The translations under genes were made by a program, and so were the position numbers. From positions 1,358,218 to 1,422,217 of the forward strand of contig CP075365.1 of the NCBI GenBank assembly GCA_019454125.1: a DNA stretch of 64,000 bases, read 5' to 3'. The notes under the pieces were generated by a model. That model saw nothing but the letters and a program-made list of their open reading frames with translations, did not search any database and was not told the DNA's origin. The stretch comes from Fimbriimonadaceae bacterium. Its GTDB lineage: Bacteria > Armatimonadota > Fimbriimonadia > Fimbriimonadales > Fimbriimonadaceae. Position 1 is the first letter of the stretch. Each line of letters opens with the position of its first letter. Positions 46,493 through 50,392 of the stretch are shown here, one piece after another.

Positions 46493-47014
46493 GTGGTTCC
46501 GTCCTTGCTCGCGCTCGCCCTTGTCGCAGGTACAACGATCTACGACTTCAAAGTCCCCGATATTGACGGGAGCGAGGTCTCACTCTCCCGCTACAAAGGC
46601 AAGGTTCTTCTCGTGGTTAACGTGGCCAGTCGTTGTGGACTAACACCACAATACGAAGCGCTTGAGGCGCTTTATCGAGACAAGAAGTCTCAGGGTTTCG
46701 AAATCCTCGCATTTCCAGCCAACGACTTTAAGGGTCAGGAGCCAGGCTCCAACGAACAGATTAAGGAGTTTTGCTCCTCGACCTATAACGTGACCTTTCC
46801 TCTTTTCGAAAAGTCCGTTGTCCTGGGAGAAAAGAAGTCTGCACTCTATAAGTGGCTTATCGCCTCGGCAGACCGCCACGACGAGATCGAATGGAACTTC
46901 GCTAAGTTTGTCATCGACCGTCGTGGGAACGTCGTCGCAAGGTTTGAACCACAGACCGTTCCGAACGATCCCAAGATTTTGGGAGTTATCGAGCACGAAC
47001 TTGCAAAGGACTGA
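46493..47014 (+). CDS. glutathione peroxidase-family protein, Cys type, exported
   Basis: The 173-residue thioredoxin-fold peroxidase has a signal-like N-terminus (LLALALVAGTT) and the family motifs VNVASRCGLTPQYEAL with the peroxidatic Cys (a normal TGT codon, not UGA), LAFPANDFKGQEPG with the conserved Gln, and IEWNFAKFVIDRRGNV with Trp/Asn. The resolving Cys is in EFCSSTYN, as in thioredoxin-dependent enzymes. The GTG start is 2 nt after holA. Base composition is visibly less GC-rich than its neighbours, which may indicate recent acquisition. Confidence 0.9.
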   Translation: MVPSLLALALVAGTTIYDFKVPDIDGSEVSLSRYKGKVLLVVNVASRCGLTPQYEALEALYRDKKSQGFEILAFPANDFKGQEPGSNEQIKEFCSSTYNVTFPLFEKSVVLGEKKSALYKWLIASADRHDEIEWNFAKFVIDRRGNVVARFEPQTVPNDPKILGVIEHELAKD

Positions 47015-49273: not shown

Positions 49274-50119
49274 TTACAGGTTGCGAACCGAGAACGTGTC
49301 GCCCCCACGCGGGTCGCCGCTCTCGAACCCTTTCATGAACCAGCGGACTCTTTGTTCGCTGGTTCCGTGGGTGAAGGCGTCCGGCACTACGTAGCCCTGG
49401 GCCTGCTTCTGGAGCGTATCGTCTCCAATGGCGTTAGCGGCTGTGATCGCCTCCTGGATGTCCGTGCGGTCCAGCTCCGCCATAGAGCGGGCGTGGTGCG
49501 CCCAAACCCCCGCGTAGTAGTCGGCCTGCAGTTCGAGCCGGACCGAAAGCGCGTTCGCGTCGCGCTCGTTCATCCTGCTACGGCGCTGGTTCACCTTGTC
49601 CATTGTGCCGAGAAGGTTCTGAACGTGGTGGCCGACCTCATGGGCCACGACATACGCCATCGCGAAATCGCCGCCCGCGCCGAACTGGTCGCGCATGGTC
49701 TCATAGAACGAGAGGTCGAGGTACACGTCTTGATCCGGCGCGCAATAGAACGGACCTGCCGCGGCGGAAGCCATGCCGCATGCAGAATCGACGCGACCGG
49801 AGAAAAGCACAAGCTTGGGGCTCTCATAGCGCCGCCCCATGCTTTGGAAAAGCTTGTCCCAGACGACTTCGGTGTCGCGCAGGGTGACGCCGACGAACTC
49901 GCGGAGCTCCTGCTCGTGCGCGCTGGGCGGGGCCGCAGGCACAGCGGCGCCGGGCGCGCCCCCGGCTGCCGCGCCGAAGAGCGCGGAGGGGTCGCCCGTG
50001 AGAAGGAACACGACGAGGGCGACCACGATGCCGAAGCCGCCAAGCCCCGCGGCTCTGCCCGCCGGCATCCCGCGACGGTCCTCTACGTTCTCGCTTTGCT
50101 CACGACCCTTCCAACGCAT
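49274..50119 (-). CDS. neutral zinc metallopeptidase (YpfJ/KPN_02809 family)
   Basis: The 281-residue product has an N-terminal cytoplasmic Arg-rich segment, one membrane anchor (FGIVVALVVFLLTG) and an extracytoplasmic peptidase domain with AYVVAHEVGHHVQNLLG (HExxH zinc motif), RLELQADYYAGVWAHHA (downstream Glu ligand) and VVPDAFTHGTSEQRVRWFMKG. This is the standard putative neutral zinc metallopeptidase family; substrates unknown. It closes a long minus-strand gene run, 6 bp after selW. Confidence 0.9.
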   Translation of the reverse strand: MRWKGREQSENVEDRRGMPAGRAAGLGGFGIVVALVVFLLTGDPSALFGAAAGGAPGAAVPAAPPSAHEQELREFVGVTLRDTEVVWDKLFQSMGRRYESPKLVLFSGRVDSACGMASAAAGPFYCAPDQDVYLDLSFYETMRDQFGAGGDFAMAYVVAHEVGHHVQNLLGTMDKVNQRRSRMNERDANALSVRLELQADYYAGVWAHHARSMAELDRTDIQEAITAANAIGDDTLQKQAQGYVVPDAFTHGTSEQRVRWFMKGFESGDPRGGDTFSVRNL

Positions 50120-50125
50120 GACGGA

Positions 50126-50392
50126 TTATAGGCTCCCGGGGCCCGAACGCTTCCGGACTTGATCTGAGATTTCAGACGCTTCCGGAAAGCGCCCCACCTG
50201 TCTTTTCGAGAAGACAAGCTCCCCATCTATGACAACGTCAAAGACTCCCCCGCCGGAGGGAACGAGGACAAGCTCACTGATCGGATGCCCCTTACCGACT
50301 ATGCCGCGGAAATCCTCTACAAGTTTAGCCGCCAAACTGGCGGCCCGAGGAATGTAGTTTCACTCGACGCAGAACGTGATCTCGATACGCAT
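50126..50392 (-). CDS. SelW/Rdx-family selenoprotein with CxxU motif (in-frame UGA)
   Basis: Read through the in-frame UGA (50360-50362), this is an 88-residue thioredoxin-like Rdx protein. It begins MRIEITFCVE, then UGA as residue 11, then NYIPRAASLAAKLVEDF, and continues VPSGGGVFDVVIDGELVFSKRQ and VGRFPEASEI. That is the complete SelW/SelT/SelH family pattern (CxxU/C, PRAASLA, GGVFDV, DGELVFSK, GRFPE), with Sec at the position that is U or C in relatives; Cys8 is intact. Without readthrough the family's redox motif would be lost. A SECIS-like hairpin follows the UGA. It starts 6 bp after the preceding stop. SelW proteins are small redox proteins linked to oxidative stress; the gene lies one gene downstream of msrA. 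Confidence 0.85.
50328..50344 (-). promoter_or_regulatory. candidate bacterial SECIS hairpin in selW
   Basis: On the minus strand, GCCGCCA pairs perfectly with TGGCGGC around a GTT loop. The loop G is 23 nt after the UGA, within the range usual for bacterial SECIS elements, and the loop has the required G-U. Confidence 0.65.

Follow-up and report, generated by a model that had tools for sequence, protein, structure and literature searches.

The gene at positions 50126 to 50392 (minus strand) of the window, that is, the whole 64,000-nucleotide stretch of Fimbriimonadaceae DNA analyzed here, encodes, with a probability that we put at about 0.96, a SelW-like (Rdx) selenoprotein in which UGA codon 11 is read as selenocysteine (Sec) via an in-frame SECIS element. 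Computation establishes the gene, the conservation of its UGA, the Sec machinery of the genome, the conservation of the SECIS and the fold. The relevant features are as follows.

50126..50392, minus strand: selW-like gene, Rdx family, 88 residues, stop codon TAA, a single in-frame TGA read (on our interpretation) as Sec

50360..50362, minus strand: the in-frame TGA, corresponding to Sec11 of the CxxU motif (C8-V-E-U11) and kept in homologues

50327..50345, minus strand: predicted SECIS hairpin, with a stem of 8 pairs (7 Watson-Crick and a basal G.U) and G 50337 and U 50336 in the apical loop

50399..50713, minus strand: preceding open reading frame (ORF) of 104 aa with a signal-like N-terminus and no family, its TAA being in frame with the selW ATG and ending 6 bp before it

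49274..50119, minus strand: YpfJ-like neutral zinc metallopeptidase downstream of selW, its ATG 6 bp past the selW stop; not a conserved partner

The start codon of selW is unambiguous: the ATG (50392-50390) lies exactly 6 bp beyond the TAA of the 104-aa ORF (50401-50399), and because that TAA is in the same frame, translation cannot start further upstream. The frame opens with ATG-CGT-ATC-GAG-ATC-ACG-TTC-TGC-GTC-GAG-TGA-AAC-TAC and ends at the TAA at 50126, so that the N-terminus of the product reads MRIEITFC-VE-U-NYIPRAASLA, with the TGA as residue 11. A conventional ORF listing contains only a 69-aa frame with a TTG start (50335-50126), which begins past the redox motif. An earlier sequence-only reading of this DNA had proposed a normal start codon 6 bp after the preceding gene, an upstream extension of the listed frame through the UGA that restores the N-terminus, and membership in the SelW/Rdx family with a CVEU (CxxU) motif, and all three proposals hold. 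The read-through product matches the Pfam Rdx profile (PF10262) over its full length (positions 1-74 of 74; 68.6 bits against a cut-off of 22.6, E 5e-19), whereas for the 69-aa ORF by itself the match starts no earlier than profile position 30 (41.6 bits). Searched with a profile of the 39 remaining homologues, the 657 TGA-read-through frames in the window gave a single match, the selW frame (E 3e-34), confirming a genuine gene beyond chance. Ordinary gene calling would plausibly miss or truncate it.

That the shorter ORF exists and is recognized as Rdx unaided fits a different account, namely, that the UGA either is a genuine stop or results from a sequencing error and that the locus yields a truncated Rdx protein of 69 aa from the TTG at 50335 or is a pseudogene. 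Such a product would be devoid of the first strand and of the redox motif, and the conservation of the UGA speaks against it. The 61 related genomes compared, drawn from the same genus, family and order, contain 19 Rdx genes, and each of these has TGA at the position of residue 11, with exactly one TGA per match; of the 39 Rdx genes detected across 291 genomes in the phylum, 38 likewise have TGA there, the remaining one having Cys, and U also occupies this position in 7 of 7 relatives taken from other records, including Actinomycetota, Gemmatimonadota and Planctomycetota. Recurrence of the same TGA in independent genomes, in 38 of the 39 phylum homologues, excludes an independent read error, which the earlier reading had named as a way in which its claim could fail; furthermore, the sequence is conserved on either side of the UGA, which argues against a stop or a pseudogene, as does, for a true stop, the complete Sec machinery described below. 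Truncation or read error thus appears, on the comparison of sequences, to be refuted in practice, and we consider it highly improbable. The sole Cys version in the phylum, with the motif YCVPC (G122:C22:51752-51976), lacks a SECIS-like hairpin.

The distribution of Rdx among the 61 relatives follows that of selA: 18 of the 34 selA-positive genomes carry Rdx compared to 1 of the 27 selA-negative ones (Fisher p = 2e-5, shared ancestry ignored). SelA is thus found in 18 of the 19 Rdx genomes, the exception being only 73% complete, and when genomes at least 90% complete and with low contamination are counted, Rdx is present in 16 of 30 SelA-positive and 0 of 20 SelA-negative genomes (p = 3e-5, shared ancestry ignored). 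Rdx is missing from the other 16 of the 34 selA-positive relatives, in which Sec is presumably used in other proteins.

The genome from which the window derives (2.65 Mb, one contig, 97% complete) encodes the full apparatus for Sec, the presence of which the earlier reading had left to be checked. SelA scores 456 bits and SelB 360 bits, the latter with its GTPase, barrel and C-terminal winged-helix domains; tRNA-Sec with the anticodon UCA (78 bits) was also identified by ARAGORN; and SelD, above the cut-off, has an in-frame TGA of its own at the catalytic site (CAGUASK). The SelD locus, at about 887229-888210 on the minus strand of the genome contig, is itself a probable selenoprotein gene (CAG-U-ASK), and downstream of its UGA lies the hairpin GGCCGAG-GUC-CUCGGCC, with the loop G about 33 nt past the UGA. 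A search for formate dehydrogenase as a further selenoprotein in this genome turned up nothing but a molybdoenzyme that scored below threshold and had no in-frame stop. Within the window, the neighboring MsrA has Cys (GCFWC) and no Sec codon, and the same holds for the motif of GPx at 46493-47014, which likewise contains Cys and no Sec codon.

Decoding of the UGA as some residue other than Sec, through reassignment (for example, to Trp) or near-cognate read-through, would also leave the frame open, and nothing beyond that open frame favors it. Other genes in the window, for example, the GPx and DinB-like genes, end normally at UGA, indicating that the genetic code is not reassigned; homologues have UGA or Cys at this site, never Trp; tRNA-Sec (UCA) and SelB are both present; and the hairpin is under selection in the UGA copies. 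Taken with these observations, non-Sec decoding is the least probable of the alternatives that we considered, and we infer that Sec is inserted at this codon in the cell.

The hairpin begins at the 16th nt past the UGA (15 nt between) and consists of Watson-Crick pairs between 50344-50338 and 50334-50328 around the loop GUU, as the sequence-only reading had described it, with a basal G.U pair in addition. Its folding energy is -14.7 kcal/mol (z -2.8), with 2 of 200 shuffles equally good. The bacterial SECIS consensus calls for a distance of 16-37 nt from the UGA (PMC10778597) and for a small apical loop containing G (PMC1088965); here, the loop contains the G, and the UGA-to-loop distance of 22 nt is inside that range. 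The resemblance to SECIS first seen in the letters is accordingly borne out by the loop G, the distance, the pairing excess and the covariation. A search of Rfam returned no SECIS family match. An RNA model trained on SelW elements had the selW hairpin as its sole match in the genome, leaving the SelD hairpin undetected; the model is therefore not a general SECIS finder, and the missing SelD hairpin is as expected of a family-specific RNA model.

Conceivably, a hairpin could arise at this place simply because the coding sequence (RAASLAA) is conserved and GC-rich: by chance, GC-rich Ala codons alone yield about 5 of the 8 pairs, and the pairing excess is modest for most single sequences. We therefore assessed pairing against a null in which the codons after the UGA were recoded synonymously with local codon usage in the 39 UGA homologues (300 shuffles). 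The eight stem positions form 261 pairs in the homologues compared to 193 +/- 6 expected and a maximum of 209, so that the pairing exceeds 300 of 300 recodings (shared ancestry uncorrected), and their folding energies sum to -489 kcal/mol versus -377 +/- 19 kcal/mol under the null. All 39 UGA-containing homologues have the loop G, and rare codons are retained at the loop: the loop Ser codon is AGT in 18 of 19 cases, although AGT makes up 8% of usage, and the loop Gly codon is GGT in 12 of 13, although GGT makes up 20%. The one Cys homologue compared retains 2 of the 8 stem pairs and is without the hairpin. Covariation scores are higher than in any of the 500 shuffles or the slid controls, shared ancestry uncorrected. 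Finally, the codon for a conserved Leu follows the first base of the preceding codon, being TTG in 18 and CTG in 4 homologues after A, and CTG in 12 of 12 after G (p = 3e-6); because the Leu itself stays the same, an explanation at the RNA level fits this switch best. The pairing excess, the retained rare AGT/GGT codons, the Leu switch and the lack of a hairpin in the Cys homologue all argue against a coding by-product, which we regard as very unlikely, and for a SECIS.

When the loop is closed by column 28 instead of 29, the pair 25:28 is A-U in 15 homologues, G-C in 12 and C-G in 2. This suggests, tentatively and at somewhat worse than even odds, a combined picture in which SelW is almost exclusively a selenoprotein in this phylum and its SECIS has a defined tip, in which a closing pair that covaries (A-U, G-C or C-G) encloses the two bases G-U (sometimes G-G), with an invariant U coming next. 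If this is true, such a tip would define SelB recognition more precisely than the requirement for a small loop containing G. The synonymous TTG/CTG switching at the loop is in itself a sign of SelB recognition.

Apart from Rdx, the selW product matches TIGR02174 (CXXU_selWTH) with 56.4 bits against a cut-off of 34.2. The best-scoring NCBIfam model is NF041051 (SelTWH of Campylobacterota), at 78.7 bits; this is below the equivalog cut-off of 88 bits for SelTWH_Campy, and therefore the product is not filed in that family. C8 and residue 11 are invariant across 40 homologues. An AlphaFold run on the 40-sequence alignment produced a thioredoxin-like SelW fold (pLDDT 94.7) in which CxxU sits between strand E2-8 and helix H14-27. 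Location between strand 1 and helix 1 is the placement of the redox motif in thioredoxin-like redox proteins. The top PDB matches of the model are the SelW-related structures 2FA8, 2OBK, 3DEX, 2OKA, 2OJL and 2P0G, followed by MIEN1 and mouse SelW, with E 1e-8 and TM 0.8 for 2FA8, 2OBK and others (TM-score up to 0.83); a profile search against PDB SelW-like chains agrees (sequence E 4e-20 to 5e-8). The fold is thus shared with mouse SelW (2NPB) and with all six of these bacterial proteins, at 22% identity to the former and 30-40% to the bacterial chains, whereas eukaryotic SECIS elements sit in the 3' UTR (PMC1088965) and the hairpin here is in-frame, just downstream of the UGA.

In the mechanism that we propose, translation would begin at the ATG at 50392, and the hairpin just past UGA codon 11, with its apical loop G and U, would recruit SelB carrying Sec-tRNA-Sec, itself made by SelA from seryl-tRNA-Sec and selenophosphate supplied by SelD. 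Sec would then be inserted at UGA11 in place of termination, giving an 88-residue thioredoxin-like protein in which Cys8-x-x-Sec11, between strand 1 and helix 1, may serve as the thiol/selenol redox center. The SelW family is characterized by CxxU and by interaction with glutathione (PMC1088965), and a Cys-x-x-Sec redox role can be presumed from family membership; by analogy with animal SelW, the reaction partner is probably glutathione or a protein thiol.

We also sought a functional operon in approximately 7 kb around selW in 18 relatives and detected no MsrA, 104-aa ORF or zinc peptidase shared beside it. The 104-aa ORF has no Pfam or NCBIfam match and is absent near selW in the relatives examined. 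A functional partner deduced from neighboring genes was accordingly rejected: since the neighbors are not conserved, position implies no partner, and the adjoining MsrA and zinc peptidase are no evidence of function. Linkage of selA to selW was seen, unlike in the genome of the window, in only two of the relatives examined, G008, where selA is about 0.6 kb from selW with accA/accD near, and G003, where it is about 6 kb away.

Selenoproteins of the bacterial SelW-like CxxU type were already known by 2005, if not before. With 48 genes, SelW-like outnumbered every other selenoprotein family in the Sargasso Sea data (PMC1088965), and reviews list SelW-like as PF10262 with CxxU (PMC13188914, PMC9312934). 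The surprise implied by the sequence-only reading was therefore overstated, such proteins being both known and common (PMC1088965, PMC1794560). The gene described here shares with them (PF10262; PMC1088965, PMC1794560, PMC13188914) the full-length Rdx domain, CxxU, the in-frame UGA, a SECIS with a loop G right after the UGA and the near lack of Cys homologues in Sec-decoding relatives; nothing essential differs, the redox motif here being CVEU. Few or no Cys homologues of SelW have been reported in Sec-decoding organisms, and Sec is likely the original form (PMC1794560), and our TGA-versus-Cys counts repeat that scarcity. SelW genes were also "completely missed" in genome annotations of Epsilonproteobacteria (PMC4607533). 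Hence, this selW is an ordinary, well-supported and easily mis-annotated member of a well-known family, and the understanding of the family is unchanged; what the finding contributes is a corrected gene model, where ordinary gene calling would truncate ahead of the active site, and one more bacterial lineage with SelW as a selenoprotein.
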